Positions 1-51,454 of a stretch of 64,000 nt of DNA are shown in pieces. The notes beneath the pieces are model-generated. The model ran no database searches and was not told the origin of the DNA. It saw only the letters and a program-made list of their open reading frames with translations. Location of the stretch: the NCBI RefSeq assembly GCF_021134715.1, contig NC_060021.1, positions 5,580,001 through 5,644,000 of the forward strand. The letters are read 5' to 3'. The translations under genes were made by a program, and so were the position numbers. The first letter of the stretch is position 1; each line of letters opens with the position of its first letter. Origin of the DNA: Daphnia pulex (taxonomy: Eukaryota; Arthropoda; Branchiopoda; Diplostraca; Daphniidae).

Positions 1-68
1 TGGTTCTTTGTGCTGTGGAACAGTTGGGAACTTTAAAATAGAAGTAATCAATTGTAAAACTGCTTTTG

Positions 69-76
69 TGACGTCA
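69..76. promoter_or_regulatory. CRE-like palindrome TGACGTCA (representative of the array)
   Basis: Perfect 8-bp palindrome, the consensus site of CREB/ATF-type bZIP factors. It lies 40 bp before the tRNA of copy 1. The site recurs at the same spot in most units (for example 1037-1044), sometimes as TGATGTCA, TGACATCA or TGACGTTA. What it does here is unknown; its constant phasing to the tRNA start is what is seen. Confidence 0.6.
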
Positions 77-116
77 TGACCACTTTTGAAATTGTTGTCC
101 TATGAAAAAGTGTTGT

Positions 117-189
117 GGTTCTATGGCTTAGATGGCAAAAAGCCTGCCTAGTAAGCAGGAGATCACGAGTTCGAGTCTCGTTGGGACCT
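117..189 (+). tRNA. tRNA-Thr(AGT)-like, copy 1
   Basis: Anticodon arm, T arm and acceptor stem pair, but the 3' strand of the D stem reads AAAA instead of AAGC, which breaks the D stem. Confidence 0.5.
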
Positions 190-317
190 GTAAGAAATGT
201 CATCAAAATCATCCCGTGTCTCTTATAAAACAGAAAAAGAACTGATAGAATCGTTAAAATAAGTTCTATTATAGCGCAGAATACCGTTAAATTGCTAGTT
301 ATAATGATTATTTTCTT

Positions 318-338
318 GGTAGTCTAATTTTGACTGCC
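318..338. other. Conserved spacer hairpin GGTAGTC/GACTGCC (representative)
   Basis: Seven-bp stem with one G-T pair and a 7-nt loop TAATTTT, found in nearly every unit. Variants such as GGTAGTCTTAATTTTGACT keep the stem. Confidence 0.5.
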
Positions 339-421
339 TACTCGGGCACAATTCCATAGGTGTTTTCCATGCTGAAATTTAAACACCAAATCATAATAAC
401 TAATGGTGCAGCATGGATCTG

Positions 422-437
422 CTCTTCCTAGTAAGAG
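422..437. other. Second hairpin CTCTT-CCTAGT-AAGAG (representative)
   Basis: Five-bp stem with a 6-nt loop. Its centre CCTAGTAAG is identical to the anticodon-loop region of the tRNA in the same unit. It may be a relic of a second tRNA-like sequence or coincidence. It stays CTAGTAAG in units whose tRNA anticodon has changed. Confidence 0.45.
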
Positions 438-600
438 ACCAGGACTCGTAGTATCGTTGAAAATCTCGCTGATTTTTTTGTAAATTGTTCTTTGTGCTGT
501 GGAACAGTTGGGAACTTTCAAATAGAAGTAATCAATTGTAAAACTGCTTTTGTGATGTCATGACCACTTTTTAAATTGTTGTCCTATGAAACCGTTTTAT

Positions 601-673
601 GGTCCTATGGCTTAGATGGCAAAGCGCCTGCCTAGTAAGCAGGAGATCACGAGTTCGAGTCTCGTTGGGACCT
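601..673 (+). tRNA. tRNA-Thr(AGT), copy 2 (canonical form)
   Basis: Full cloverleaf. The acceptor GGTCCTA/TGGGACC is 7 bp with one G-T pair, the D stem is GCTT/AAGC, the anticodon stem CCTGC/GCAGG encloses loop CTAGTAA (anticodon AGT), the T stem is ACGAG/CTCGT with loop TTCGAGT, and the discriminator is T. The body closely matches animal tRNA-Thr(AGT), including the AGATC variable loop. No CCA is encoded, as expected in eukaryotes. No run of four T lies within about 70 bp downstream, which is unusual for an active tRNA gene. Confidence 0.8.
608..662 (+). promoter_or_regulatory. Internal Pol III promoter, A box and B box (representative, copy 2)
   Basis: The A-box match (TGGCTTAGATGG, 608-619) and B-box match (AGTTCGAGTCT, 652-662) are near consensus for a type 2 Pol III promoter. 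Most units keep both. Copies cut to about 33 bp keep only the A box. Confidence 0.7.
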
Positions 674-1084
674 GTAAGAAATGCCATTATAATCATCCCG
701 TGTCTCTTATAAATTAGAAAAAGAACTGATAGATTCGTTAAAATAAGTTCTATTATAGCGCAGAATACCGTTAAATTGCTAGTTATAATGATTATTTTCT
801 TGGTAGTCTAATTTTGACTGCCTACTCGGGCACAATTCCATAGGTATTTTCCATGCTGAAATTTAAACACCAAATCATAATAACTAATTGTGCAGCATGG
901 ATCTGCTCTTCCTAGTAAGAGACCAGGACTAGTAGTATCGTTGAAAATCTCGTTGATTTTTTTGTAAATTGTTCTGTGTGCTGTGGAACAGTTGGGAACT
1001 TTAAAATAGAAGTAATCAATTGTAAAACTGCTTTTGTGACGTCATGACCACTTTTCAAATTGTTGTCCTATGAAAAAGTGTTGT

Positions 1085-1157
1085 GGTTCTATGGCTTAGA
1101 TGGCAAAGCGCCTGCCTAGTAAGCAGGAGATCACGAGTTCGAGTCTCGTTGGGACCT
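1085..1157 (+). tRNA. tRNA-Thr(AGT), copy 3
   Basis: Acceptor 5' strand GGTTCTA gives a second G-T pair; all other stems pair fully. Confidence 0.75.
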
Positions 1158-1568
1158 GTAAGAAATGTCATCAAAATCATCCCGTGTCTCTTAGAAAATA
1201 GAAAAAGAACTGATAGAATCGTTAAAATAAGTTCTATTATAGCGCAGAATACCGTTAAATTGCTAGTTATAATGATTATTTTCTTGGTAGTCTAATTTTG
1301 ACTGCCTACTCGGGCACAATTCCATAGGTATTTTCCATGCTGAAATTTAAACACCAAATCATAATAACTAATGGTGCAGCATGGATCTGCTCTTCCTAGT
1401 AAGAGACCAGGACTCGTAGTATCGTTGAAAATCTCACTGATTTTTTTGTAAATTGTTCTTTGTGCTTTGGAACAGTTGGGAACTTTAAAATAGAAGTAAT
1501 CAATTGTAAAACTGCTTTTGTGACGTCATGACCACCTTTGAAATAGTTGTCCTATGAAGCCGTTTTAT

Positions 1569-1641
1569 GGTCCTATGGCTTAGATGGCAAAGCGCCTGCC
1601 TAGTAAGCAGGAGATCACGAGTTCGAGTCTCGCTGGGACCT
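1569..1641 (+). tRNA. tRNA-Thr(AGT), copy 4
   Basis: Outer T-stem pair is A-C (CTCGC). A run of seven T begins at 1719, 78 bp past the 3' end, and is the first plausible Pol III terminator. Confidence 0.65.
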
Positions 1642-2053
1642 GTAATAAATGTCATCATAATCATCCCGTGTCTCTTAGAATTCAGAAAAAGATCTGATAG
1701 AATCGTTAAAATAAGTTCTTTTTTTAGCGCAGAATACCGTTAAATTGCTGGTTATAATGATTATTTTCTTGGTAGTCTAATTTTGACTGCCTACTCTGGC
1801 ACAATTCCATAGGTATTTTCCATGCTGAAATTTAAACACCAAATCATAATAACTAATGGTGCAGCATGGATCTGCTCTTCCTAGTAAGAGACCAGGACTC
1901 GTAGTATCGTTGAAAATCTCGCTGATTTTTTTGTAAATTGTTCTTTGTGCTGTGGAACAGTTGGGAACTTTAAAATAGAAGTAATCAATTGTAAAACTGC
2001 TGTTATGACGTCATGACCACTTTTTGAATTGTTGTCCTATGAAGCCGTTTTAT

Positions 2054-2126
2054 GGTCCTATGGCTTAGATGGCAAAGCGCCTGCCTAGTAAGCAGGAGAT
2101 CACGAGTTCGTGTCTCGATGGGACCT
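2054..2126 (+). tRNA. tRNA-Thr(AGT)-like, copy 5
   Basis: T loop TTCGTGT and T-stem 3' strand CTCGA weaken the B box and the outer T-stem pair. Confidence 0.55.
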
Positions 2127-2537
2127 GTAAGAAATGTCATCATAATCATCCCGTGTCTCTTAGAATTCAGAAAAAGAACTTATAGAATCAATAAAATAAG
2201 TTTTATTTTAGCGCAGAATACCGTTAAATTGCTAGTTATAATGATTATTTTCTTGGTAGTCTAATTTTGACTGCCTACTCGGGCACAAGTCCATAGGTAT
2301 TTTCCATGCTGAAATTTAAACACCAAATCATAATAACTAATGGTGCAGCATGGATCTGCTCTTCCTAGTAAGAGACCAGGACTCGTAGTATCGTTGAAAA
2401 TCTCGTTGATTTTTTTTTAAATGGTTCTTTGTGCTGTGGAACAGTTGGGAACTTTAAAATAGAAGTAATCAATTGTAAAACTGCTTTTGTGACGTCATGA
2501 CCACTTTTGAAATTGTTGTCCTATGAAAAAGTGTTGT

Positions 2538-2610
2538 GGTTCTATGGCTTAGATGGCAAAAAGCCTGCCTAGTAAGCAGGAGATCACGAGTTCGAGTCTC
2601 GTTGGGACCT
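2538..2610 (+). tRNA. tRNA-Thr(AGT)-like, copy 6
   Basis: Same broken D stem as copy 1, of which it is a duplicate. Confidence 0.5.
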
Positions 2611-3021
2611 GTAAGAAATGTCATCAAAATCATCCCGTGTCTCTTATAAAACAGAAAAAGAACTGATAGAATCGTTAAAATAAGTTCTATTATAGCGCAG
2701 AATACCGTTAAATTGCTAGTTATAATGATTATTTTCTTGGTAGTCTAATTTTGACTGCCTACTCGGGCACAATTCCATAGGTGTTTTCCATGCTGAAATT
2801 TAAACACCAAATCATAATAACTAATGGTGCAGCATGGATCTGCTCTTCCTAGTAAGAGACCAGGACTCGTAGTATCGTTGAAAATCTCGCTGATTTTTTT
2901 GTAAATTGTTCTTTGTGCTGTGGAACAGTTGGGAACTTTCAAATAGAAGTAATCAATTGTAAAACTGCTTTTGTGATGTCATGACCACTTTTTAAATTGT
3001 TGTCCTATGAAACCGTTTTAT

Positions 3022-3094
3022 GGTCCTATGGCTTAGATGGCAAAGCGCCTGCCTAGTAAGCAGGAGATCACGAGTTCGAGTCTCGTTGGGACCT
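3022..3094 (+). tRNA. tRNA-Thr(AGT), copy 7
   Basis: Identical to the canonical form of copy 2. Confidence 0.8.
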
Positions 3095-3505
3095 GTAAGA
3101 AATGCCATTATAATCATCCCGTGTCTCTTATAAATTAGAAAAAGAACTGATAGATTCGTTAAAATAAGTTCTATTATAGCGCAGAATACCGTTAAATTGC
3201 TAGTTATAATGATTATTTTCTTGGTAGTCTAATTTTGACTGCCTACTCGGGCACAATTCCATAGGTATTTTCCATGCTGAAATTTAAACACCAAATCATA
3301 ATAACTAATTGTGCAGCATGGATCTGCTCTTCCTAGTAAGAGACCAGGACTAGTAGTATCGTTGAAAATCTCGTTGATTTTTTTGTAAATTGTTCTGTGT
3401 GCTGTGGAACAGTTGGGAACTTTAAAATAGAAGTAATCAATTGTAAAACTGCTTTTGTGACGTCATGACCACTTTTCAAATTGTTGTCCTATGAAAAAGT
3501 GTTGT

Positions 3506-3578
3506 GGTTCTATGGCTTAGATGGCAAAGCGCCTGCCTAGTAAGCAGGAGATCACGAGTTCGAGTCTCGTTGGGACCT
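3506..3578 (+). tRNA. tRNA-Thr(AGT), copy 8
   Basis: Same as copy 3 (GGTTCTA acceptor strand). Confidence 0.75.
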
Positions 3579-3989
3579 GTAAGAAATGTCATCAAAATCA
3601 TCCCGTGTCTCTTAGAAAATAGAAAAAGAACTGATAGAATCGTTAAAATAAGTTCTATTATAGCGCAGAATACCGTTAAATTGCTAGTTATAATGATTAT
3701 TTTCTTGGTAGTCTAATTTTGACTGCCTACTCGGGCACAATTCCATAGGTATTTTCCATGCTGAAATTTAAACACCAAATCATAATAACTAATGGTGCAG
3801 CATGGATCTGCTCTTCCTAGTAAGAGACCAGGACTCGTAGTATCGTTGAAAATCTCGCTGATTTTTTTGTAAATTGTTCTTTGTGCTGTGGAACAGTTGG
3901 GAACTTTAAAATAGAAGTAATCAATTGTAAAACTGCTTTTGTGATGTCATGACCACTTTTTAAATTGTTGTCCTATGAAGCCGTTTTAT

Positions 3990-4051
3990 GGTCCTATGGC
4001 TTAGATGGCAAAGCGCCTGCCTAGGCACGAGTTCGAGTCTCGTTGGGACCT
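3990..4051 (+). pseudogene. tRNA-Thr pseudogene, copy 9 (11-bp deletion)
   Basis: The 3' half of the anticodon arm and part of the variable loop are missing, so there is no anticodon stem. The T arm and B box remain. Confidence 0.85.
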
Positions 4052-4462
4052 GTAAGAAATGTCATCATAATCATCCCGTGTCTCTTATAAATTAGAAAAA
4101 GAACTGATAGATTCGTTAAAATAAGTTCTATTATAGCGCAGAATACCGTTAAATTGCTAGTTATAATGATTATTTTCTTGGTAGTCTAATTTTGACTGCC
4201 TACTCGGGCACAATTCCATAGGTATTTTCCATGCTGAAATTTAAACACCAAATCATAATAACTCATTGTGCAGCATGGATCTGCTCTTCCTAGTAAGAGA
4301 CCAGGACTAGTAGTATCGTTGAAAATCTCGTTGATTTTTTTGTAAATTGTTCTTTGTGCTGTGGAACAGTTGGGAACTTTAAAATAGAAGTAATCAATTG
4401 TAAAACTGCTGTTGTGACGTCATGACCACTTTTGAAATTGTTGTCCTATGAAAAGGTGTTGT

Positions 4463-4535
4463 GGTTTTATGGCTTAGATGGCAAAGCGCCTGCCTAGTAA
4501 GCAGGAGATCACGAGTTCGAGTCTCGTTGGGACCT
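4463..4535 (+). tRNA. tRNA-Thr(AGT), copy 10
   Basis: Acceptor 5' strand GGTTTTA makes three G-T pairs; the rest is canonical. Confidence 0.65.
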
Positions 4536-4946
4536 GTAAGAAATGTCATCAAAATCATCCTGTGTCTCTTAGAAAACAGAAAAAGAACTGATAGAATCGT
4601 TAAAATAAGTTCTATTATAGCGCAGAATACCGTTAAATTGCTAGTTATAATGATTATTTTCTTGGTAGTCTAATTTTGACTGCCTACTCGGGCACAATTC
4701 CATAGGTGTTTTCCATGCTGAAATTTAAACACCAAATCATAATAACTAATGGTGCAGCATGGATCTGCTCTTCCTAGTAAGAGACCAGGACTCGTAGTAT
4801 CGTTGAAAATCTCGCTGATTTTTTTGTAAATTGTTCTTTGTGCTGTGGAACAGTTGGGAACTTTAAAATAGAAGTAATCAATTGTAAAACTGCTGTTGTG
4901 ACGTCATGACCACTTTTGAAATTGTTGTCCTATGAAAAAGTGTTGT

Positions 4947-5019
4947 GGTTCTATGGCTTAGATGGCAAAGCGCCTGCCTAGTAAGCAGGAGATCACGAGT
5001 TTGAGTCTCGTTGGGACCT
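4947..5019 (+). tRNA. tRNA-Thr(AGT), copy 11
   Basis: T loop TTTGAGT: the conserved C56 of the T loop is T, which also weakens the B box. Confidence 0.55.
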
Positions 5020-5431
5020 GTAAGAAATGTCATCAAAATCATCCCGTGTCTCTTAGAAAACAGAAATAGAACTGATAGAATCGTTAAAATAAGTTCTATT
5101 ATAGCGCAGAATGCCGTTAAATTGCTAGTTATAATGATTATTTTCTTGGTAGTCTTAATTTTGACTGCCTACTCGGGCACAATTCCATAGGTATTTTCCA
5201 TGCTGAAATTTAAATACCAAATCATAATAACTAATTGTCCAGCATGGATCTGCTCTTCCTAGTAAGAGACCAGGACTCGTAATATCGTTAAAAATCTCGT
5301 TGATTTTTTTGTAAATTGTTCTTTGTGCTTTGGAACTTTTGGGAACTTTAAAATAGAAGTAATCAATTGTAAAACTGCTTTTGTGACGTCATGACCACTT
5401 TTGAAATAGTTGTCCTATGAAGTCGTTTTAT

Positions 5432-5504
5432 GGTCCTATGGCTTAGATGGCAAAGCGCCTGCCTAGTAAGCAGGAGATCACGAGTTCGAGTCTCGCTGGG
5501 ACCT
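5432..5504 (+). tRNA. tRNA-Thr(AGT), copy 12
   Basis: CTCGC T-stem variant; T-run about 75 bp downstream. Confidence 0.65.
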
Positions 5505-5915
5505 GTAAGAAATGTCATCATAATCATCCCGTGTCTCTTAGAATTCAGAAAAAGAACTGATAGAATCGTTAAAATAAGTTCTTTTTTAGCGCAGAATACC
5601 GTTAAATTGCTAGTTATAATGATTATTTTCTTGGTAGTCTAATTTTGACTGCCTACTCGGGCACAATTCCATAGGTATTTTCCATGCTGAAATTTAAACA
5701 CCAAATCATAATAACTAATTGTGCAGCATGGATCTGCTCTTCCTAGTAAGAGACCAGGACTCGTAGTATCGTTGAAAATCTCGTTGATTTTTTTTTAAAT
5801 GGTTCTTTGTGCTGTGGAACAGTTGGGAACTTTAAAATAGAAGTAATCAATTGTAAAACTGCTTTTGTGATGTCATGACCACTTTTTAAATTGTTGTCCT
5901 ATGAAGCCGTTTTAT

Positions 5916-5977
5916 GGTCCTATGGCTTAGATGGCAAAGCGCCTGCCTAGGCACGAGTTCGAGTCTCGTTGGGACCT
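5916..5977 (+). pseudogene. tRNA-Thr pseudogene, copy 13 (11-bp deletion)
   Basis: Same deletion as copy 9, 1926 bp on. Confidence 0.85.
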
Positions 5978-6388
5978 GTAAGAAATGTCATCATAATCAT
6001 CCCGTGTCTCTTATAAATTAGAAAAAGAACTGATAGATTCGTTAAAATAAGTTCTATTATAGCGCAGAATACCGTTAAATTGCTAGTTATAATGATTATT
6101 TTCTTGGTAGTCTAATTTTGACTGCCTACTCGGGCACAATTCCATAGGTATTTTCCATGCTGAAATTTAAACACCAAATCATAATAACTAATTGTGCAGC
6201 ATGGATCTGCTCTTCCTAGTAAGAGACCAGGACTAGTAGTATCGTTGAAAATCTCGTTGATTTTTTTGTAAATTGTTCTTTGTGCTGTGGAACAGTTGGG
6301 AACTTTAAAATAGAAGTAATCAATTGTAAAACTGCTGTTGTGACGTCATGACCACTTTTGAAATTGTTGTCCTATGAAAAGGTGTTGT

Positions 6389-6461
6389 GGTTTTATGGCT
6401 TAGATGGCAAAGCGCCTGCCTAGTAAGCAGGAGATCACGAGTTCGAGTCTCGTTGGGACCT
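6389..6461 (+). tRNA. tRNA-Thr(AGT), copy 14
   Basis: GGTTTTA acceptor strand, as copy 10. Its unit also has a run of six T about 130 bp after the tRNA, where most units read ATTATTTTC. Confidence 0.65.
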
Positions 6462-6872
6462 GTAAGAAATGTCATCAAAATCATCCCGTGTCTCTTAGAA
6501 AACCGAAAAAGAACTGATAGAATCGTTAAAATAAGTTCTATTATAGCGCAGAATACCGTTAAATTGCTAGTTTTAATGATTTTTTTCTTGGTAGTCTAAT
6601 TTTGACTGCCTACTCGGGCACAATTCCATAGGTGTTTTCCATGCTGAAATTTAAACACCAAATCATAATAACTAATGGTGCAGCATGGATCTGCTCTTCC
6701 TAGTAAGAGACCAGGACTCGTAGTATCGTTGAAAATCTCGCTGATTTTTTTGTAAATTGTTCTTTGTGCTGTGGAACAGTTGGGAACTTTAAAATAGAAG
6801 TAATCAATTGTAAAACTGCTGTTGTGACGTCATGACCACTTTTGAAATTGTTGTCCTATGAAAAAGTGTTGT

Positions 6873-6945
6873 GGTTCTATGGCTTAGATGGCAAAGCGCC
6901 TGCCTAGTAAGCAGGAGATCACGAGTTTGAGTCTCGTTGGGACCT
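6873..6945 (+). tRNA. tRNA-Thr(AGT), copy 15
   Basis: TTTGAGT T loop, as copy 11. Confidence 0.55.
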
Positions 6946-7357
6946 GTAAGAAATGTCTTCAAAATCATCCCGTGTCTCTTAGAAAACAGAAATAGAACTG
7001 ATAGAATCGTTAAAATAAGTTCTATTATAGCGCAGAATACCGTTAAATTGCTAGTTATAATGATTATTTTCTTGGTAGTCTTAATTTTGACTGCCTACTC
7101 GGGCACAATTCCATAGGTATTTTCCATGCTGAAATTTAAATACCAAATCATAATAACTAATTGTCCAGCATGGATCTGCTCTTCCTAGTAAGAGACCAGG
7201 ACTCGTAATATCGTTAAAAATCTCGTTGATTTTTTTGTAAATTGTTCTTTGTGCTTTGGAACAGTTGGGAACTTTAAAATAGAAGTAATCAATTGTAAAA
7301 CTGCTTTTGTGACGTCATGACCACCTTTGAAATAGTTGTCCTATGAAGCCGTTTTAT

Positions 7358-7430
7358 GGTCCTATGGCTTAGATGGCAAAGCGCCTGCCTAGTAAGCAGG
7401 AGATCACGAGTTCGAGTCTCGCTGGGACCT
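7358..7430 (+). tRNA. tRNA-Thr(AGT), copy 16
   Basis: CTCGC T-stem variant. Confidence 0.65.
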
Positions 7431-7841
7431 GTAAGAAATGTCATCATAATCATCCCGTGTCTCTTAGAATTCAGAAAAAGAACTGATAGAATCGTTAAAA
7501 TAAGTTCTTTTTTAGCGCAGAATACCGTTAAATTGCTAGTTATAATGATTATTTTCTTGGTAGTCTAATTTTGACTGCCTACTCGGGCACAATTCCATAG
7601 GTATTTTCCATGCTGAAATTTAAACACCAAATCATAATAACTAATTGTGCAGCATGGATCTGCTCTTCCTAGTAAGAGACCAGGACTCGTAGTATCGTTG
7701 AAAATCTCGTTGATTTTTTTTTTAATTGTTCTTTGTGCTGTGGAACAGTTGGGAACTTTAAAATAGAAATAATCAATTGTAAAACTGCTTTTGTGACGTC
7801 ATGACCACTTTTGAAATTGTTGTCCTATGAAAAAGTATTGT

Positions 7842-7914
7842 GGTTCTATGGCTTAGATGGCAAAGCGCCTGCCTAGTAAGCAGGAGATCACGAGTTCGAG
7901 TCTCGTTGGGACCT
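7842..7914 (+). tRNA. tRNA-Thr(AGT), copy 17
   Basis: GGTTCTA acceptor strand, other stems intact, T-run about 80 bp downstream. This unit is the extra one between two 1926-bp blocks. Confidence 0.75.
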
Positions 7915-8325
7915 GTAAGAAATGTCATCAAAATCATCCCGTGTCTCTTAGAATTCAGAAAAAGAACTGATAGAATCGTTAAAATAAGTTCTTTTTTAGC
8001 GCAGAATACCGTTAAATTGCTAGTTATAATGATTATTTTCTTGGTAGTCTAATTTTGACTGCCTACTCGGGCACAATTCCATAGGTATTTTCCATGCTGA
8101 AATTTAAACACCAAATCATAATAACTAATGGTGCAGCATGGATCTGCTCTTCCTAGTAAGAGACCAGGACTCGTAGTATCGTTGAAAATCTCGCTGATTT
8201 TTTTGTAAATTGTTCTTTGTGCTGTGGAACAGTTGGGAACTTTAAAATAGAAGTAATCAATTGTAAAACTGCTTTTTCGATGTCATGACCACTTTTTAAA
8301 TTGTTGTCCTATGAAGCCGTTTTAT

Positions 8326-8387
8326 GGTCCTATGGCTTAGATGGCAAAGCGCCTGCCTAGGCACGAGTTCGAGTCTCGTTGGGACCT
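8326..8387 (+). pseudogene. tRNA-Thr pseudogene, copy 18 (11-bp deletion)
   Basis: Third copy of the same 11-bp loss. Confidence 0.85.
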
Positions 8388-8798
8388 GTAAGAAATGTCA
8401 TCATAATCATCCCGTGTCTCTTATAAATTAGAAAAAGAACTGATAGATTCGTTAAAATAAGTTCTATTATAGCGCAGAATACCGTTAAATTGCTAGTTAT
8501 AATGATTATTTTCTTGGTAGTCTAATTTTGACTGCCTACTCGGGCACAATTCCATAGGTATTTTCCATGCTGAAATTTAAACACCAAATCATAATAACTA
8601 ATTGTGCAGCATGGATCTGCTCTTCCTAGTAAGAGACCAGGACTAGTAGTATCGTTGAAAATCTCGTTGATTTTTTTGTAAATTGTTCTTTGTGCTGTGG
8701 AACAGTTGGGAACTTTAAAATAGAAGTAATCAATTGTAAAACTGCTGTTGTGACGTCATGACCACTTTTGAAATTGTTGTCCTATGAAAAGGTGTTGT

Positions 8799-8871
8799 GG
8801 TTTTATGGCTTAGATGGCAAAGCGCCTGCCTAGTAAGCAGGAGATCACGAGTTCGAGTCTCGTTGGGACCT
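8799..8871 (+). tRNA. tRNA-Thr(AGT), copy 19
   Basis: GGTTTTA acceptor strand, as copies 10 and 14. Confidence 0.65.
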
Positions 8872-9282
8872 GTAAGAAATGTCATCAAAATCATCCCGTG
8901 TCTCTTAGAAAACCGAAAAAGAACTGATAGAATCGTTAAAATAAGTTCTATTATAGCGCAGAATACCGTTAAATTGCTAGTTTTAATGATTTTTTTCTTG
9001 GTAGTCTAATTTTGACTGCCTACTCGGGCACAATTCCATAGGTGTTTTCCATGCTGAAATTTAAACACCAAATCATAATAACTAATGGTGCAGCATGGAT
9101 CTGCTCTTCCTAGTAAGAGACCAGGACTCGTAGTATCGTTGAAAATCTCGCTGATTTTTTTGTAAATTGTTCTTTGTGCTGTGGAACAGTTGGGAACTTT
9201 AAAATAGAAGTAATCAATTGTAAAACTGCTGTTGTGACGTCATGACCACTTTTGAAATTGTTGTCCTATGAAAAAGTGTTGT

Positions 9283-9355
9283 GGTTCTATGGCTTAGATG
9301 GCAAAGCGCCTGCCTAGTAAGCAGGAGATCACGAGTTTGAGTCTCGTTGGGACCT
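9283..9355 (+). tRNA. tRNA-Thr(AGT), copy 20
   Basis: TTTGAGT T loop. Confidence 0.55.
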
Positions 9356-9767
9356 GTAAGAAATGTCATCAAAATCATCCCGTGTCTCTTAGAAAACAGA
9401 AATAGAACTGATAGAATCGTTAAAATAAGTTCTATTATAGCGCAGAATACCGTTAAATTGCTAGTTATAATGATTATTTTCTTGGTAGTCTTAATTTTGA
9501 CTGCCTACTCGGGCACAATTCCATAGGTATTTTCCATGCTGAAATTTAAATACCAAATCATAATAACTAATTGTCCAGCATGGATCTGCTCTTCCTAGTA
9601 AGAGACCAGGACTCGTAATATCGTTAAAAATCTCGTTGATTTTTTTGTAAATTGTTCTTTGTGCTTTGGAACAGTTGGGAACTTTAAAATAGAAGTAATC
9701 AATTGTAAAACTGCTTTTGTGACGTCATGACCACCTTTGAAATAGTTGTCCTATGAAGCCGTTTTAT

Positions 9768-41646: not shown

Positions 41647-42057
41647 GTAAAAAATGTCATCATAATCATCCCTGGTCTCTTAGAAAACAGAAAAAGAACT
41701 GATAGAATCGTTAAAATAAGTTCTATTTTAGCGCAGAATACCGTTAAATTGCTAGTTATAATGATTATTTTCTTGGTAGTCTAATTTTGACTGCCTTCTC
41801 GGGCACAATTCCATAGGTATTTTCCATGCTGATATTTAAACACCAAATCATAAAAACTAATTGTGCTGCATGGATCTTCTCTTCCTAGTAAGAGACCAGG
41901 ACTCGTAGTATCGTTGAAAATCTCATTGATTTTTTTGTAAATTGTTCTTTGTGCTGTGGAACAGTTGGGAACTTTAAAATAGAAGTAATCAATTGTAAAA
42001 CTGCTGTTGTGACGTCATGACCACTTTTGAAATTGTTGTCCTATGAATATGTTTTTT

Positions 42058-42130
42058 GGTCCTATGGCTTCGATGGCAAAGCGCCTGCCTAGCAAGCAGG
42101 AGATGATGAGTTCGAGTCTCGATGGTACCT
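42058..42130 (+). tRNA. tRNA-like with Ala anticodon (AGC), copy 67
   Basis: AGC unit, position 3 of the block. Confidence 0.55.
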
Positions 42131-42541
42131 GTAAAAAATGTCTACATAATCATCCCTGGTCTCTTAGAAAACAGAAAAAGAACTGATAGAATCGTTAAAA
42201 TAAGTTCTATTTTAGCGCAGAATACCGTTAAATTGCTAGTTATAATGATTATTTTCTTGGTAGTCTAATTTTGACTGCCTTCTCGGGCACAATTCCATAG
42301 GTATTTTCCATGCTGATATTTAAACACCAAATCATAAAAACTAATTGTGCTGCATGGATCTTCTCTTCCTAGTAAGAGACCAGGACTCGTAGTATCGTTG
42401 AAAATCTCATTGATTTTTTTGTAAATTGTTCTTTGTGCTGTGGAACAGTTGGGAACTTTAAAATAGAAGTAATCAATTGTAAAACTGCTGTTGTGACATC
42501 ATGACCACTTTTGAAATTGTTGTCCTATGAATATGTTTTTT

Positions 42542-42614
42542 GGTCCTATGGCTTCGATGGCAAAGCGCCTGCCTAGCAAGCAGGAGATGATGAGTTCGAG
42601 TCTCGATGGTACCT
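42542..42614 (+). tRNA. tRNA-like with Ala anticodon (AGC), copy 68
   Basis: AGC unit, position 4; upstream palindrome changed to TGACATCA. Confidence 0.55.
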
Positions 42615-43025
42615 GTAAAAAATGTCAACATAATCATCTCTGGTCTCTTAGAATTCAGAAAAAGAACTGATAGAATCGTTAAAATAAGTTCTATTTTAGC
42701 GCAGAATACCGTTAAATTGCTAGTTATAATGATTATTTTCTTGGTAGTCTAATTTTGACTGCCTACTCGGGCACAATTCCATAGGTATTTTCCATGCTGA
42801 TATTTAAACACCAAATCATAATAACTAATTGTGCTGCATGGATCTGCTCTTCCTAGTAAGAGACCAGGACTCGTAGTATCGTTGAAAATCTAGTTGACTT
42901 TTTTGTAAATTGTTCTTTGTGCTGTGGAACAGTTGGGAACTTAAAAATAGAAGTAATCAATTGTAAAACTGCTTTTGTGACGTCATGACCACTTTTCAAA
43001 TTGTTGTCCTATGAAGCCGTTTTGT

Positions 43026-43098
43026 GGTCCTATGGCTTAGATGGCAAAGGGCCTGCCTAGTAAGCAGGAGATCACGAGTTCGAGTCTCGTTGGGACAT
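43026..43098 (+). tRNA. tRNA-Thr(AGT)-like, copy 69
   Basis: Position 5 of the block: Thr-type body with acceptor end GGGACAT. Confidence 0.45.
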
Positions 43099-43507
43099 GT
43101 AAGAAATGTCATCATAATCATCCCGTGTCTCTTAGAAAACTGAAAAAGAACTGTTAGAATCGTTGAAATAAGTTATATTTTAGCGCAGAATACCGTTAAA
43201 TTGCTAGTTATAATGATTATTTTCTTGGTAGTCTAATTTTTACTGCCTACTCGGGCACAATTCCATAGGTATTTTCCATGCTGATATTTAAACACCAAAT
43301 CATAATAACTAATTGTGCTGCATGGATCTGCTCTTCCTAGTAAGAGACCAGGACTCGTAGTATCGTTGAAAATCTCATTGATTTTTTTGTAAATTGTTCT
43401 GTGCTGTGGAACAGTTGGGAACTTTAAAATAGAAGTAATCAATTGTAAAACTGCTGTTGTGACGTCATGACCACTTTTGAAATTGTTGTCCTATGAATAT
43501 GTTTTTT

Positions 43508-43580
43508 GGTCCTATGGCTTCGATGGCAAAGCGCCTGCCTAGCAAGCAGGAGATGATGAGTTCGAGTCTCGATGGTACCT
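43508..43580 (+). tRNA. tRNA-like with Ala anticodon (AGC), copy 70
   Basis: AGC unit, second block, position 1. Confidence 0.55.
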
Positions 43581-43991
43581 GTAAAAAATGTCAACATAAT
43601 CATCCCTGGTCTCTTAGAAAACAGAAAAAGAACTGATAGAATCGTTAAAATAAGTTCTATTTTAGCGCAGAATACCGTTAAATTGCTAGTTATAATGATT
43701 ATTTTCTTGGTAGTCTAATTTTGACTGCCTTCTCGGGCACAATTCCATAGGTATTTTCCATGCTGATATTTAAACACCAAATCATAATAACTAATTGTGC
43801 TGCATGGATCTTCTCTTCCTAGTAAGAGACCAGGACTCGTAGTATCGTTGAAAATCTCATTGATTTTTTTGTAAATTGTTCTTTGTGCTGTGGAACAGTT
43901 GGGAACTTTAAAATAGAAGTAATCAATTGTAAAACTGCTGTTGTGACGTCATGACCACTTTTGAAATTGTTGTCCTATGAATATGTTTTTT

Positions 43992-44064
43992 GGTCCTATG
44001 GCTTCGATGGCAAAGCGCCTGCCTAGCAAGCAGGAGATGATGAGTTCGAGTCTCGATGGTACCT
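43992..44064 (+). tRNA. tRNA-like with Ala anticodon (AGC), copy 71
   Basis: AGC unit, second block, position 2. Confidence 0.55.
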
Positions 44065-44475
44065 GTAAAAAATGTCATCATAATCATCCCTGGTCTCTTA
44101 GAAAACAGAAAAAGAACTGATAGAATCGTTAAAATAAGTTCTATTTTAGCGCAGAATACCGTTAAATTGCTAGTTATAATGATTATTTTCTTGGTAGTCT
44201 AATTTTGACTGCCTTCTCGGGCACAATTCCATAGGTATTTTCCATGCTGATATTTAAACACCAAATCATAAAAACTAATTGTGCTGCATGGATCTTCTCT
44301 TCCTAGTAAGAGACCAGGACTCGTAGTATCGTTGAAAATCTCATTGATTTTTTTGTAAATTGTTCTTTGTGCTGTGGAACAGTTGAGAACTTTAAAATAG
44401 AAGTAATCAATTGTAAAACTGCTGTTGTGACGTCATGACCACTTTTGAAATTGTTGTCCTATGAATATGTTTTTT

Positions 44476-44548
44476 GGTCCTATGGCTTCGATGGCAAAGC
44501 GCCTGCCTAGCAAGCAGGAGATGATGAGTTCGAGTCTCGATGGTACCT
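44476..44548 (+). tRNA. tRNA-like with Ala anticodon (AGC), copy 72
   Basis: AGC unit, second block, position 3. Confidence 0.55.
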
Positions 44549-44959
44549 GTAAAAAATGTCTACATAATCATCCCTGGTCTCTTAGAAAACAGAAAAAGAA
44601 CTGATAGAATCGTTAAAATAAGTTCTATTTTAGCGCAGAATACCGTTAAATTGCTAGTTATAATGATTATTTTCTTGGTAGTCTAATTTTGACTGCCTTC
44701 TCGGGCACAATTCCATAGGTATTTTCCATGCTGATATTTAAACACCAAATCATAAAAACTAATTGTGCTGCATGGATCTTCTCTTCCTAGTAAGAGACCA
44801 GGACTCGTAGTATCGTTGAAAATCTCATTGATTTTTTTGTAAATTGTTCTTTGTGCTGTGGAACAGTTGGGAACTTTAAAATAGAAGTAATCAATTGTAA
44901 AACTGCTGTTGTGACATCATGACCACTTTTGAAATTGTTGTCCTATGAATATGTTTTTT

Positions 44960-45032
44960 GGTCCTATGGCTTCGATGGCAAAGCGCCTGCCTAGCAAGCA
45001 GGAGATGATGAGTTCGAGTCTCGATGGTACCT
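44960..45032 (+). tRNA. tRNA-like with Ala anticodon (AGC), copy 73
   Basis: AGC unit, second block, position 4. Confidence 0.55.
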
Positions 45033-45443
45033 GTAAAAAATGTCAACATAATCATCTCTGGTCTCTTAGAATTCAGAAAAAGAACTGATAGAATCGTTAA
45101 AATAAGTTCTATTTTAGCGCAGAATACCGTTAAATTGCTAGTTATAATGATTATTTTCTTGGTAGTCTAATTTTGACTGCCTACTCGGGCACAATTCCAT
45201 AGGTATTTTCCATGCTGATATTTAAACACCAAATCATAATAACTAATTGTGCTGCATGGATCTGCTCTTCCTAGTAAGAGACCAGGACTCGTAGTATCGT
45301 TGAAAATCTAGTTGACTTTTTTGTAAATTGTTCTTTGTGCTGTGGAACAGTTGGGAACTTAAAAATAGAAGTAATCAATTGTAAAACTGCTTTTGTGACG
45401 TCATGACCACTTTTCAAATTGTTGTCCTATGAAGCCGTTTTGT

Positions 45444-45516
45444 GGTCCTATGGCTTAGATGGCAAAGGGCCTGCCTAGTAAGCAGGAGGTCACGAGTTCG
45501 AGTCTCGTTGGGACAT
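45444..45516 (+). tRNA. tRNA-Thr(AGT)-like, copy 74
   Basis: Second block, position 5; GGGACAT end and variable loop AGGTC. Confidence 0.45.
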
Positions 45517-45925
45517 GTAAGAAATGTCATCATAATCATCCCGTGTCTCTTAGAAAACTGAAAAAGAACTGTTAGAATCGTTGAAATAAGTTATATTTTA
45601 GCGCAGAATACCGTTAAATTGCTAGTTATAATGATTATTTTCTTGGTAGTCTAATTTTTACTGCCTACTCGGGCACAATTCCATAGGTATTTTCCATGCT
45701 GATATTTAAACACCAAATCATAATAACTAATTGTGCTGCATGGATCTGCTCTTCCTAGTAAGAGACCAGGACTCGTAGTATCGTTGAAAATCTCATTGAT
45801 TTTTTTGTAAATTGTTCTGTGCTGTGGAACAGTTGGGAACTTTAAAATAGAAGTAATCAATTGTAAAACTGCTGTTGTGACGTCATGACCACTTTTGAAA
45901 TTGTTGTCCTATGAATATGTTTTTT

Positions 45926-45998
45926 GGTCCTATGGCTTCGATGGCAAAGCGCCTGCCTAGCAAGCAGGAGATGATGAGTTCGAGTCTCGATGGTACCT
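45926..45998 (+). tRNA. tRNA-like with Ala anticodon (AGC), copy 75
   Basis: AGC unit, third block, position 1. Confidence 0.55.
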
Positions 45999-46409
45999 GT
46001 AAAAAATGTCAACATAATCATCCCTGGTCTCTTAGAAAACAGAAAAAGAACTGATAGAATCGTTAAAATAAGTTCTATTTTAGCGCAGAATACCGTTAAA
46101 TTGCTAGTTATAATGATTATTTTCTTGGTAGTCTAATTTTGACTGCCTTCTCGGGCACAATTCCATAGGTATTTTCCATGCTGATATTTAAACACCAAAT
46201 CATAATAACTAATTGTGCTGCATGGATCTTCTCTTCCTAGTAAGAGACCAGGACTCGTAGTATCGTTGAAAATCTCATTGATTTTTTTGTAAATTGTTCT
46301 TTGTGCTGTGGAACAGTTGGGAACTTTAAAATAGAAGTAATCAATTGTAAAACTGCTGTTGTGACGTCATGACCACTTTTGAAATTGTTGTCCTATGAAT
46401 ATGTTTTTT

Positions 46410-46482
46410 GGTCCTATGGCTTCGATGGCAAAGCGCCTGCCTAGCAAGCAGGAGATGATGAGTTCGAGTCTCGATGGTACCT
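46410..46482 (+). tRNA. tRNA-like with Ala anticodon (AGC), copy 76
   Basis: AGC unit, third block, position 2. Confidence 0.55.
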
Positions 46483-46893
46483 GTAAAAAATGTCATCATA
46501 ATCATCCCTGGTCTCTTAGAAAACAGAAAAAGAACTGATAGAATCGTTAAAATAAGTTCTATTTTAGCGCAGAATACCGTTAAATTGCTAGTTATAATGA
46601 TTATTTTCTTGGTAGTCTAATTTTGACTGCCTTCTCGGGCACAATTCCATAGGTATTTTCCATGCTGATATTTAAACACCAAATCATAAAAACTAATTGT
46701 GCTGCATGGATCTTCTCTTCCTAGTAAGAGACCAGGACTCGTAGTATCGTTGAAAATCTCATTGATTTTTTTGTAAATTGTTCTTTGTGCTGTGGAACAG
46801 TTGGGAACTTTAAAATAGAAGTAATCAATTGTAAAACTGCTGTTGTGACGTCATGACCACTTTTGAAATTGTTGTCCTATGAATATGTTTTTT

Positions 46894-46966
46894 GGTCCTA
46901 TGGCTTCGATGGCAAAGCGCCTGCCTAGCAAGCAGGAGATGATGAGTTCGAGTCTCGATGGTACCT
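46894..46966 (+). tRNA. tRNA-like with Ala anticodon (AGC), copy 77
   Basis: AGC unit, third block, position 3. Confidence 0.55.
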
Positions 46967-47377
46967 GTAAAAAATGTCTACATAATCATCCCTGGTCTCT
47001 TAGAAAACAGAAAAAGAACTGATAGAATCGTTAAAATAAGTTCTATTTTAGCGCAGAATACCGTTAAATTGCTAGTTATAATGATTATTTTCTTGGTAGT
47101 CTAATTTTGACTGCCTTCTCGGGCACAATTCCATAGGTATTTTCCATGCTGATATTTAAACACCAAATCATAAAAACTAATTGTGCTGCATGGATCTTCT
47201 CTTCCTAGTAAGAGACCAGGACTCGTAGTATCGTTGAAAATCTCATTGATTTTTTTGTAAATTGTTCTTTGTGCTGTGGAACAGTTGGGAACTTTAAAAT
47301 AGAAGTAATCAATTGTAAAACTGCTGTTGTGACATCATGACCACTTTTGAAATTGTTGTCCTATGAATATGTTTTTT

Positions 47378-47450
47378 GGTCCTATGGCTTCGATGGCAAA
47401 GCGCCTGCCTAGCAAGCAGGAGATGATGAGTTCGAGTCTCGATGGTACCT
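47378..47450 (+). tRNA. tRNA-like with Ala anticodon (AGC), copy 78
   Basis: AGC unit, third block, position 4. Confidence 0.55.
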
Positions 47451-47861
47451 GTAAAAAATGTCAACATAATCATCTCTGGTCTCTTAGAATTCAGAAAAAG
47501 AACTGATAGAATCGTTAAAATAAGTTCTATTTTAGCGCAGAATACCGTTAAATTGCTAGTTATAATGATTATTTTCTTGGTAGTCTAATTTTGACTGCCT
47601 ACTCGGGCACAATTCCATAGGTATTTTCCATGCTGATATTTAAACACCAAATCATAATAACTAATTGTGCTGCATGGATCTGCTCTTCCTAGTAAGAGAC
47701 CAGGACTCGTAGTATCGTTGAAAATCTAGTTGACTTTTTTGTAAATTGTTCTTTGTGCTGTGGAACAGTTGGGAACTTAAAAATAGAAGTAATCAATTGT
47801 AAAACTGCTTTTGTGACGTCATGACCACTTTTCAAATTGTTGTCCTATGAAGCCGTTTTGT

Positions 47862-47934
47862 GGTCCTATGGCTTAGATGGCAAAGGGCCTGCCTAGTAAG
47901 CAGGAGATCACGAGTTCGAGTCTCGTTGGGACAT
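47862..47934 (+). tRNA. tRNA-Thr(AGT)-like, copy 79
   Basis: Third block, position 5; GGGACAT end. Confidence 0.45.
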
Positions 47935-48345
47935 GTAAGAAATGTCATCATAATCATCCCGTGTCTCTTAGAAAACTGAAAAAGAACTGTTAGAATCGTT
48001 GAAATAAGTTATATTTTAGCGCAGAATACCGTTAAATTGCTAGTTATAATGATTATTTTCTTGGTAGTCTAATTTTTACTGCCTACTCGGGCACAATTCC
48101 ATAGGTATTTTCCATGCTGATATTTAAACACCAAATCATAATAACTAATTGTGCTGCATGGATCTGCTCTTCCTAGTAAGAGACCAGGACTCGTAGTATC
48201 GTTGAAAATCTAGTTGACTTTTTTGTAAATTGTTCTTTGTGCTGTGGAACAGTTGGGAACTTAAAAATAGAAGTAATCAATTGTAAAACTGCTTTTGTGA
48301 CGTCATGACCACTTTTCAAATTGTTGTCCTATGAAGCCGTTTTGT

Positions 48346-48418
48346 GGTCCTATGGCTTAGATGGCAAAGGGCCTGCCTAGTAAGCAGGAGATCACGAGTT
48401 CGAGTCTCGTTGGGACAT
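48346..48418 (+). tRNA. tRNA-Thr(AGT)-like, copy 80
   Basis: Tandem duplicate of copy 79, outside the block pattern. Confidence 0.45.
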
Positions 48419-48829
48419 GTAAGAAATGTCATCATAATCATCCCGTGTCTCTTAGAAAACTGAAAAAGAACTGTTAGAATCGTTAAAATAAGTTATATTT
48501 TAGCGCAGAATACCGTTAAATTGCTAGTTATAATGATTATTTTCTTGGTAGTCTAATTTTGACTGCCTTCTCGGGCACAATTCCATAGGTATTTTCCATG
48601 CTGATATTTAAACACCAAATCATAATAACTAATTGTGCTGCATGGATCTTCTCTTCCTAGTAAGAGACCAGGACTCGTAGTATCGTTGAAAATCTCATTG
48701 ATTTTTTTGTAAATTGTTCTTTGTGCTGTGGAACAGTTGGGAACTTTAAAATAGAAGTAATCAATTGTAAAACTGCTGTTGTGACGTCATGACCACTTTT
48801 GAAATTGTTGTCCTATGAATATGTTTTTT

Positions 48830-48902
48830 GGTCCTATGGCTTCGATGGCAAAGCGCCTGCCTAGTAAGCAGGAGATGATGAGTTCGAGTCTCGATGGTAC
48901 CT
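48830..48902 (+). tRNA. tRNA-Thr(AGT) on the Ala-type body, copy 81
   Basis: Intermediate type, as copies 61 and 63. Confidence 0.5.
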
Positions 48903-49313
48903 GTAAAAAATGTCAAAATAATCATCACTTGTCTCTTGGAAAACAGAAAAAGAACTGATAGAATCGTTAAAATAAGTTCTATTTTAGCGCAGAATACCGT
49001 TAAATTGCTAGTTATAATGATTATTTTCTTGGTAGTCTAATTTTGACTGCCTTCTCGGGCACAATTCCATAGGTATTTTCCATGCTGATATTTAAACACC
49101 AAATCATAATAACTTATTGTGCTGCATGGATCTTCTCTTCCTAGTAAGAGACCAGGACTCGTAGTATCGTTGAAAATCTCATTGATTTTTTTGTAAATTG
49201 TTCTTTGTGCTGTGGAACAGTTGGGAACTTTAAAATAGAAGTAATCAATTGTAAAACTGCTGTTGTGACGTCATGACCACTTTTGAAATTGTTGTCCTAT
49301 GAATATGTTTTTT

Positions 49314-49386
49314 GGTCCTATGGCTTCGATGGCAAAGCGCCTGCCTAGCAAGCAGGAGATGATGAGTTCGAGTCTCGATGGTACCT
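49314..49386 (+). tRNA. tRNA-like with Ala anticodon (AGC), copy 82
   Basis: Last AGC unit of the array. Confidence 0.55.
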
Positions 49387-49797
49387 GTAAAAAATGTCTA
49401 CATAATCATCCCTGGTCTCTTAGAAAACAGAAAAAGAACTGATAGAATCGTTAAAATAAGTTCTATTTTAGCGCAGAATACCGTTAAATTGCTAGTTATA
49501 ATGATTATTTTCTTGGTAGTCTAATTTTGACTGCCTTCTCGGGCACAATTCCATAGGTATTTTCCATGCTGATATTTAAACACCAAATCATAAAAACTAA
49601 TTGTGCTGCATGGATCTTCTCTTCCTAGTAAGAGACCAGGACTCGTAGTATCGTTGAAAATCTCATTGATTTTTTTGTAAATTGTTCTTTGTGCTGTGGA
49701 ACAGTTGGGAACTTTAAAATAGAAGTAATCAATTGTAAAACTGCTGTTGTGACTTCATGACCACTTTTGAAATTGTTGTCCTATGAAGCAGTTTTGT

Positions 49798-49870
49798 GGT
49801 CCTATGGCTTAGATGGAAAAGAGCCTGCCTAGTACGCAGGGGATCACGAGTTCGAGTCTCGTTGTGACTT
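49798..49870 (+). pseudogene. tRNA-Thr pseudogene, copy 83
   Basis: D arm ATGGAAAAGAG, anticodon loop CTAGTAC and acceptor end TGTGACT: degraded. Confidence 0.6.
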
Positions 49871-50281
49871 GTAAAAAATGTCATCATAATCATCCCGTGT
49901 CTCTCAGAAATCAGAAAAAGAACTGATAGAATCGTTAAAATAAGTTCTATTATAGCGCAGAATACCGTTAAATTGCTAGTTATAATGATTATTTTCTTGG
50001 TTATCTAATTTTGACTGCCTACTCGGGCACAATTCCATAGGTATTTTCCATGCTGATATTTAAACACCAAATCATAATAACTAATTGTGCTGCATGGATC
50101 TGCTCTTCCTAGTAAGAGACCAGGACTCGTAGTATCGTTGAAAATCTAGTTGACTTTTTTGTAAATTGTTCTTTGTGCTGTGGAACAGTTGGGAACTTTA
50201 AAATAGAAGAAATCAATTGTAAAACTGCTGTTGTGACGTCATGACCACTTTTGAAATTGTTGTCCTATGAAAAAGTTTTGT

Positions 50282-50354
50282 GGTCCTATGGCTTAGATGG
50301 CAAAGGTCCTGCCTAGTAAGCAGGATATCACGAGTTCGTGTCTCGTTGGGACAT
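50282..50354 (+). pseudogene. tRNA-Thr pseudogene, copy 84
   Basis: D-stem end AAGG, T loop TTCGTGT, acceptor end GGGACAT. Confidence 0.55.
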
Positions 50355-50765
50355 GTAAGAAATGTCATCATAATCATCCCGTGTCTCTTGGAAAACTGAA
50401 AAAGAACTGTTAGAATCGTTAAAATAAGTTCTATTTTAGCGCAGAATACCGTTAAATTAATAGTTATAATGATTATTTTCTTGGTAGTCTAATTTTTACT
50501 GCCTACTCGGGCACAATTCCATAGGTATTTTCCATGCTAAAATTTAAACATCAAATCATAATTACTAATTGTGCTGCAGGGATCTTCTCTTCCTTGTAAG
50601 AGACCAGGACTCGTAGTATCGTTGAAAATCTCGTTGATTTTTTTGTAAATTGTTCTTTGTGCTGTGGAACAGTTGGGAACTTTAAAATAGAAGTAATCAA
50701 TTGTAAAACTGCTGTTGTGACGTCATGACCACTTTTGAAATTGTTGTCCTATGAAAGAGTGTTGT

Positions 50766-50838
50766 GGTACTATGGCTTACATGGCAAAGCGCCTGCCTAG
50801 TAAGCATTAGATAACGAGTTCGAGTCTCATTGAAACCT
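50766..50838 (+). pseudogene. tRNA-Thr pseudogene, copy 85
   Basis: Anticodon 3' strand GCATT and acceptor end TGAAACC. About 40 bp of the spacer after it is also replaced by A/T-rich sequence near 50910-50935. Confidence 0.65.
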
Positions 50839-51231
50839 GTAAGAAATGTCATCATAATCATCCCGTGTCTCTTAGAAATCAGAAAAAGAACTGATAGAAT
50901 CGTTAAAATGAATGAATAAATATGATAAAATAAAATGATTATTTTCTTGGTAATCTAATTTTGACTGCCTACTCGGGCACAATTGCATAGGTATTTTTCA
51001 TGCTGAAATTTAAACACCAAATCATAATAACTAATTGTGCTGCATGGATCTGCTCTTCCTAGTAAGAACCCAGGACTCGTAGTATCGTTGAAAATCTCGT
51101 TGATTTTTTTGTAAATTGTTCTTTGTGCTGTGGAACAGTTGGGAACTTTAAAATAGAAGTAATCAATTGTAAAACTGCTGTTGTGACGTCATGACCACTT
51201 TTTAAATTGTTGTCCTATGAATATGTTTTTT

Positions 51232-51304
51232 GGTCCTATGGCTTCGATGGTAAAGCGCCTGCCTAGTAAACAGGAGATCACGAGTTCAAGTAGCGTTGGT
51301 ACCT
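51232..51304 (+). pseudogene. tRNA-Thr pseudogene, copy 86 (last of the array)
   Basis: T arm ACGAG-TTCAAGT-AGCGT and acceptor TGGTACC are mispaired. It is the last unit before the host gene. Confidence 0.6.
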
Positions 51305-51454
51305 GTAAAAATGTCATCATAATCATCCTGTGATTCTTAGAAAAAAGAAAAAGAACTGATGCAATCGTTAAAATAAGTTCTATTTTAGCGCAAAATACCG
51401 TTAAATTGCTAGTTATAATGATTATTTTCTTGGTAGTCTTGTGTTTCTTGGTTT

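Follow-up and report, generated by a model that had tools for sequence, protein, structure and literature searches.

Tandem units that carry tRNA genes have been described in the human genome. According to the parts of the paper drawn on here, the 1q23.3 tRNA variable-number tandem repeat (Darrow and Chadwick 2014, PMC4041453) consists of GC-rich units of 7.3 kb, present in 9–43 copies per allele, in which the regions conserved in mouse are the tRNA genes (<6% of the unit) and a CTCF site. This human repeat resembles the array analysed here in placing tRNA genes within tandem units, its copy number being variable. However, the present units are only 484 bp long and AT-rich, each contains a single tRNA, and this tRNA is not the conserved part. 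Clusters of tRNA genes and pseudogenes are also found in other eukaryotes, including Entamoeba, zebrafish, stickleback, and Nematostella (Bermudez-Santana 2010, PMC2888827). These clusters, which are said to have had many independent origins, can be homogeneous or mixed and, like the present array, are large, with neighbours less than 1 kb apart; the cited parts of PMC2888827 contain no description of a 484-bp satellite unit with a single tRNA.

A third point of comparison is the nematode Romanomermis culicivorax, whose genome (36% GC) has been annotated with 1443 tRNAs, of which 676 are tRNA-Thr and 382 are pseudogenes (PMC3890508). A satellite like the one reported here would yield such an excess of tRNA-Thr and so many pseudogenes, and the portions of PMC3890508 used here do not describe one behind that excess. 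The median intron of R. culicivorax is 405 bp (same portions of the source), whereas the gene next to the array shows, on visual reading, a few intron-like gaps of about 45–80 bp. Neither "tRNA" nor "satellite" appears in the main text of the Mermis nigrescens genome paper (PMC10989877), as far as the retrieved part of it extends, and "tRNA" is absent from the retrieved part of the Nematode chromosomes paper (PMC9071541). Among the matches listed in searches of open PMC full text, no title or abstract opening refers to a 484-bp tRNA-Thr satellite.

The window, that is, the whole stretch of DNA analysed, comprises 64,000 bases with zero N. It contains a tandem array of 86 tRNA-region units of about 484 bp, arranged head-to-tail on the + strand in three blocks that total about 41 kb. 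Block 1 (1–13307) has 27 full units plus one truncated by an insert (TRF, nhmmer, Rfam), block 2 extends from 17272 to 31230 (TRF, nhmmer), and block 3 (37514–51443) has 29 tRNA-bearing units (nhmmer, Rfam). TRF reports period 484 at 3–13307, 17272–23440 and 37515–51439, and the second of these arrays is prolonged to about 30956 through rows of 446, 483 and 484 bp. A search of the window with nhmmer, using one 484-bp unit (487–970, + strand) as query, yields 88 pieces, without exception on the + strand: the 86 with a tRNA region and two tRNA-less fragments, which exist because insertions split units. In the query unit the tRNA occupies positions 115–187. The unit is AT-rich, and its consensus has a T7 run at 471–477. 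The left end of the array lies beyond the window edge. The preliminary description of at least 86 units of 484 bp, in register over about 41 kb, is thus borne out by TRF and nhmmer, with the qualification that the units do not have a uniform length of 484 bp (variants of 446 and 473 bp occur) and that the array is cut twice, at 13307/17272 and 31230/37514.

Both interruptions are insertions within a unit. The first, of about 4.0 kb (13308–17271), has a clean junction sharing at most one base and contains three direct repeats of about 350 bp bearing tRNA-like sequences; the match at 15756–15821 is weak (20.9 bits, below the Rfam gathering score). The second (31231–37513, + strand) is a Ty1/copia LTR retrotransposon, identified by its Pfam domains, its LTRs and the empty site. 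Its LTRs of 281 bp show two differences, the target duplication is 5 bp long (AGCAT), and Retrotran_gag_2, gag_pre-integrs and RVT_2 are above the Pfam cutoff, rve and zf-CCHC being below it. Low-stringency ARAGORN runs (ps75, ps65) outside the array gave many calls in all three stretches, including the copia element; since they fail to discriminate, they have been discarded and are not used as evidence.

Each unit contains a tRNA-Thr or a remnant of it. The 74 tRNA genes that ARAGORN predicts for the window lie without exception within the arrays, and 80 of the 86 units reach the gathering score of Rfam RF00005. An example of an intact tRNA-Thr(AGT) lies at 601–673 (+ strand): it is called by ARAGORN, scores 66.6 bits with Rfam, and has 21 stem pairs, both the A and B boxes, and the anticodon at position 34. 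Scores of at least 57 bits are shown by 43/86 copies, all left of 31.1 kb and 23 of them in block 1; the tRNAs of block 3 are more degenerate (33.5–52.5 bits), the two outermost right units retaining 16 and 17 of the 21 stem pairs. The preliminary description had assigned a tRNA-Thr(AGT)-like sequence to every unit, but the anticodon is not AGT throughout: AGT is found in 56 units, AGC in 16, AAC in four and TGT in one, so that 21/86 carry another anticodon, the remaining nine being gapped by deletions of 40 bases (six units) or 11 bases (three units) within the tRNA. All 16 AGC variants are in block 3, and the right part of block 2 (from 22.8 kb) contains the six 40-base-deletion units, which have lost the B box, together with the four AAC variants. 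One of the latter, an AGT-to-AAC change on a tRNA-Thr body at 22931–23003 (+ strand, 67.2 bits), recurs with an identical tRNA at 27662, 29075 and 30004; these four copies outscore every other tRNA of the array and retain both boxes as well as every stem pair. In total, 32 tRNA haplotypes exist among 83 units.

Many units had also been credited with a full cloverleaf and both promoter boxes. When a full cloverleaf is taken strictly as all 21 stem pairs being canonical or GU, it is present in 23/86 units, 18 of which also have AGT. As judged by regular-expression matches to the consensus, the A box is present in 59/86 units, the B box in 64/86 and both in 40/86; strict cloverleaf, AGT and boxes coincide in 12/86. 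The proposed TFIIIC site every 484 bp is not borne out by consensus matching, both boxes occurring in only 40 units. Pseudogene-range scores for all copies, which had been named, jointly with a complete lack of TFIIIC binding and transcription, as counting against the whole proposal, are not what is observed.

The array has properties of a satellite. The 83 full aligned units, all in the same orientation, have a mean identity of 94.6% and comprise 71 distinct sequences. Mean identity between units peaks at lag 5, and a higher-order repeat of five units occurs as two neighbouring copies (42912–47747, + strand, 2418 bp each) that agree at 2416/2418 positions, more closely than any other of the six pairs of blocks examined. 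Because of these higher-order repeats we infer recent unequal exchange or conversion, and the data support a satellite-type array that has been homogenised recently.

Over all units, the inferred changes per site are 0.96 in the tRNA and 0.78 in the rest of the unit (0.90 in the stems and 1.29 in the anticodon loop), counts that presuppose a tree, an assumption violated by gene conversion. When 73-nt windows are taken round the unit, 64% of them are no warmer than the tRNA, and the comparison between the tRNA and its flanks within 80 nt is not significant (p=0.37). The stems have 26 alleles, about the number that the remainder of the unit would predict (24.3), and 7 of the 26 keep pairing, against an expected 18% (p=0.17, not significant). 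Thus, over all units, no purifying selection on the tRNA is seen when it is set against the surrounding sequence, and the idea that each unit is organised round a tRNA gene kept intact is not supported.

Taken together, these results make it probable that a tRNA-Thr(AGT) gene was captured by a satellite and multiplied with it through unequal exchange, so that most copies are passengers and some may be transcribable. A nuclear tRNA-Thr(AGT) gene would have been caught in the 484-bp repeat at the origin of the latter; the array would then have expanded and, lately, been homogenised through unequal exchange or conversion, the tRNA gene being copied along regardless of function. Since the tRNA has not been preserved any better than the other parts of the unit, it would be mostly passenger-like and not a working tRNA factory, and, there being no array-wide sign of selection for an intact tRNA, the copies would deteriorate through base substitutions, altered anticodons and internal deletions, the right block having the lowest scores. 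A minority of copies, by score all in the left 31 kb, keep cloverleaf and boxes, and Pol III transcription of them may be possible.

It is unlikely, although several observations favour it, that the array is a working tRNA-Thr(AGT) cluster in which the units that undergo transcription and processing suffice to supply tRNA-Thr while surplus copies are tolerated. Besides the 43 copies of at least 57 bits and the 18 with all pairs and AGT, the tRNA of block 1 alone is colder than its flanks within 80 nt (0.16 versus 0.34 changes per site, p=0.029, uncorrected and one of six sets), which could mean some selection there. However, the tRNA is not conserved overall, 21/86 units have other anticodons, and the Pol III terminator (at least T4) that a functional cluster should have shortly after the tRNA is missing: in all 86 units the 35 nt that follow the tRNA 3′ end are free of T4 runs. 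The first T4 is found 36–214 nt downstream, the five shortest distances (36–38 nt) belonging to 40-base-deletion units. Any transcript would extend well beyond the tRNA before reaching its first T4 (mostly at 77–121 nt). The predicted transcript from the tRNA to the T7 run folds with z=−1.94 (2/100 shuffles as good), and this fold includes a short stem near unit positions 316–336.

Raised mutation in the flanks of transcribed tRNA genes has been reported (PMC8113476, in the part used here), and the flanks at unit positions 63–114 and 188–269 show a similar pattern, with 1.24 changes per site versus 0.56 in the distal parts (rotation p=0.010; 0/10000 site permutations), for a mask picked after viewing the profile; with the same mask, flanks and tRNA do not differ significantly (p=0.12). 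This raised variation near the tRNA hints at tRNA activity and would favour a working cluster, but a halo defined by distance from the tRNA is weak across all units (rotation p=0.114), the corresponding values being 0.046 for block 1, 0.097 for block 2a, 0.109 for blocks 1 and 2a together, 0.039 for block 2b and 0.224 for block 3. A related and rather improbable proposal is that Pol III transcribes the left part of the array in germline cells, with a transcription-linked mutation halo that reaches from about −50 as far as the first T4 run and weak selection that shields the tRNA, so that the array generates tRNA variants. Its products would include a Thr-bodied tRNA with a Val anticodon (AAC, four units) and Ala anticodons (AGC, 16 units), and the satellite would then give rise to tRNAs that are new or mistranslate.

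Very little probability can be given to a role as chromatin organiser, in which TFIIIC/Pol III binding at each unit would form a barrier, a centromere or a heterochromatin border, binding and not tRNA function being what is kept. The tRNA repeat on human 1q23.3 has been linked to boundary function, through CTCF (PMC4041453, cited part); here, a centromere or barrier role would draw its support entirely from the promoter-box matches counted above. The A box has 0.50 changes per site and ranks at 0.048 among contiguous tRNA 12-mers, but site permutation gives p=0.11, and the B box is not colder than other tRNA sites (0.91, p=0.52). Furthermore, six units lack the B box through the 40-base loss, the A box of 21/83 has an A-to-C change (tRNA position 14), and the coldest 60-nt stretch of the unit starts at 278, outside the tRNA (scan p=0.0095; scans for cold blocks of 30 and 20 nt are not significant, with p=0.09 and p=0.60).

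It is at least as improbable that the unit is a tRNA-derived SINE turned tandem, with a tRNA head, an unrelated body and a T-run end. The head with A and B boxes (both in 40/86) and a first T5 run 283–284 nt downstream of the tRNA in 51/86 units fit this structure, but 114 bp upstream of the tRNA are part of the unit, the right end of the array falls at unit position 327, away from the T run, and the 64-kb window contains no convincing single or partial unit outside the arrays (three weak matches, best E=1.2). An assembly artefact, in which the reads of a smaller array were collapsed or multiplied, is extremely improbable, for although the higher-order repeats are very similar, 71/83 units are distinct, two different insertions have clean junctions, decay differs block by block and there is zero N.

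Other readings of the unit have been discarded. The region at about 421–457 matches the 3′ half of tRNA-Thr with a local score of 16 (0/2000 dinucleotide shuffles) or 24 under another scheme (4/2000), and shuffled tRNAs reach 16 in 2/3000; a second, decayed tRNA half is not claimed, because the region at about 217–270 matches the same place with an equal score. An origin of the unit as an ancestral dimer of about 205 bp plus the 73-bp tRNA has been rejected, since shuffles reach the global score in 172/1000 cases and the local score in 261/1000. When about 1.9 units were searched with Rfam, no known RNA, be it a spliced leader, an snRNA or another, was recognised outside the tRNA; apart from the tRNA itself, the output consists of two matches that fall well short of the gathering score, SNORD15 and, antisense to the tRNA, Plastid-ycf2.

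Satellites whose every unit contains a Pol III gene offer a natural test of gene selection against array homogenisation, and here homogenisation seems to win. Counts of tRNA genes from genome scans, for instance those with hundreds of tRNA-Thr, may reflect satellite copy number and not tRNA supply. If any of the copies are transcribed, the variants with changed anticodons would be new tRNAs arising in bulk.

The array in the window is most likely a satellite that captured a tRNA-Thr gene. It consists of a single tandem family, with a unit of 484 bp, that spans positions 1-13307, 17272-31230 and 37514-51443 (blocks 1, 2 and 3, respectively), its left end lying beyond the window. The unit, used as query, matched 88 pieces, all of them on the + strand, and the tRNA region is present in 86 of the 88. 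The alignment contains 83 full-length units, 71 of them distinct; it omits the five incomplete pieces that border the insertions and the right edge. These units are homogenised, with a mean pairwise identity of 94.6%. Two neighbouring stretches of five units each (42912-45329 and 45330-47747) share 2416 of 2418 positions, being the most alike among six block pairs compared, and turnover of the array is therefore recent.

Two insertions separate the blocks. An insert of about 4.0 kb, between 13307 and 17272, has a clean junction inside one unit. A Ty1/copia element (31231-37513) carries 281-bp LTRs with 2 differences and is bordered by a 5-bp target duplication; its flanks, when rejoined, restore a normal satellite unit. 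Because of this restoration and the clean junction of the other insert, the three blocks most likely formed one array in the past. At 15732-16679, the 4.0-kb insert contains three direct repeats of about 350 bp, each with a + strand tRNA-like stretch whose B box is of the type GGTTCAAATCC; two further B boxes are on the opposite strand. B-box-like sites number 8 over the entire insert (6 +, 2 -) versus a shuffle mean of 0.22 and maximum of 4. The repeats are a second tRNA-like repeat family, seemingly unrelated.

The right edge of the array lies near genes, since exons that we take to be WD-repeat-like, by resemblance, and an exon matching the TATA-binding protein (Pfam TBP, 1.3e-34) adjoin it within stretches 54390-56700 and 58022-58399; these genes are ordinary-looking. 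The TBP match and the Ty1/copia element both point to a eukaryotic sequence. Three B-box-like, tRNA-like stretches occur beside the array at 53520-54190 (53569 +, 53824 - and 54181 -), a count within the chance range for this 12.6-kb stretch (mean 0.69, maximum 4). The short tandem repeats detected by TRF at 52182-52223 (CATTCAGGCCCACGT) and, in reverse-complement form, at 54311-54411 (GTGGGCCTGAATGAC) may be the termini of a further mobile element.

The 73-nt tRNA occupies unit positions 115-187. ARAGORN assigns most copies to tRNA-Thr(AGT), some to Ala(AGC) or Val(AAC) and a single copy to Thr(TGT), and 80 of 86 copies pass the Rfam threshold. The copies are decayed to different degrees, and left and right blocks differ: all 43 copies scoring at least 57 bits lie left of 31.1 kb, while 37 score 33.5-52.5 bits, 29 of which make up the entire block 3. 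A stricter census (n=86) found anticodons AGT in 56 units, AGC in 16, AAC in 4 and TGT in 1, nine being gapped. All 21 stem pairs are intact in 23 of 86 units, 18 of them with AGT, and 12 of 86 combine all pairs, AGT and strict A and B box matches. Among the 83 aligned units, the tRNA has lost 40 bases in six and 11 bases in three. The first T4 run is located at least 36 nt past the tRNA in all 86 units, mostly at 77-121 nt (the distances of 36-38 nt belong to units with a tRNA deletion), farther downstream than in ordinary tRNA genes. Four otherwise perfect copies carry AAC and reach 67.2 bits, the top Rfam scores of the array; such anticodon changes are best read as drift, multiplied by higher-order repeats.

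Purifying selection on the tRNA is not detectable across the whole array by change counts, pairwise diversity or stem-allele tests. Changes counted on a tree built from the 71 distinct units amount to 0.96 per site in the tRNA versus 0.78 in the remainder of the unit, and 64% of all 73-nt windows around the unit have no more changes than the tRNA. Pairwise diversity points in the same direction (0.067 versus 0.052). Pairing is preserved by 7 of 26 different stem alleles (background spectrum expectation 18%, p=0.17), and the 26 alleles are close in number to the 24.3 expected from the remainder of the unit. The coldest 60-nt stretch, that is, with fewest changes per site, begins at unit position 278 and so does not fall in the tRNA (p=0.0095); no significant cold stretch emerged with windows of 20 or 30 nt.

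Some results run counter to this. In block 1, the tRNA shows 0.16 changes per site versus 0.34 in the 80 nt on each side (p=0.029). The same contrast was absent from the remaining blocks taken singly (p=0.13, 0.46 and 0.84), not clear in block 1 plus 2a, a subdivision of block 2 (p=0.06) or in all units together (p=0.37). The flanks at unit positions 63-114 and 188-269, a mask picked after inspection of the profile, have 1.24 changes per site versus 0.56 in distal parts (rotation p=0.010); their excess over the tRNA is not significant (p=0.12), and a simpler test of distance from the tRNA gave rotation values of 0.039 to 0.224. Transcription raises mutation in the immediate flanks of tRNA genes, with strong conservation inside, according to PMC8113476, which cites Thornlow 2018. 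The block-1 and flank signals are compatible with transcription of the left part that is weak or took place in the past, and with nothing beyond this.

Eukaryotic tRNA gene clusters have many separate origins (PMC2888827). In the tandem tRNA array at human 1q23.3, the conserved parts are a CTCF site and the tRNA genes themselves (PMC4041453). The Daphnia array differs in that its unit is short, holds a single tRNA and shows no conservation of that tRNA. In Romanomermis culicivorax, 676 tRNA-Thr copies are reported, with 382 pseudogenes among 1443 annotated tRNAs, and the same study notes a comparable tRNA-Thr excess in Meloidogyne and Pristionchus (PMC3890508); the terms "satellite" and "tandem" were not found in the main text of the R. 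culicivorax long-read paper (PMC10879605). The introns of the window, as judged by eye, are short, and this is a mild argument against an origin in R. culicivorax. In D. pulex, the satellite would have spread through unequal exchange with the tRNA as a passenger, copied along whether working or not, and some of the tRNA copies may be transcribed.
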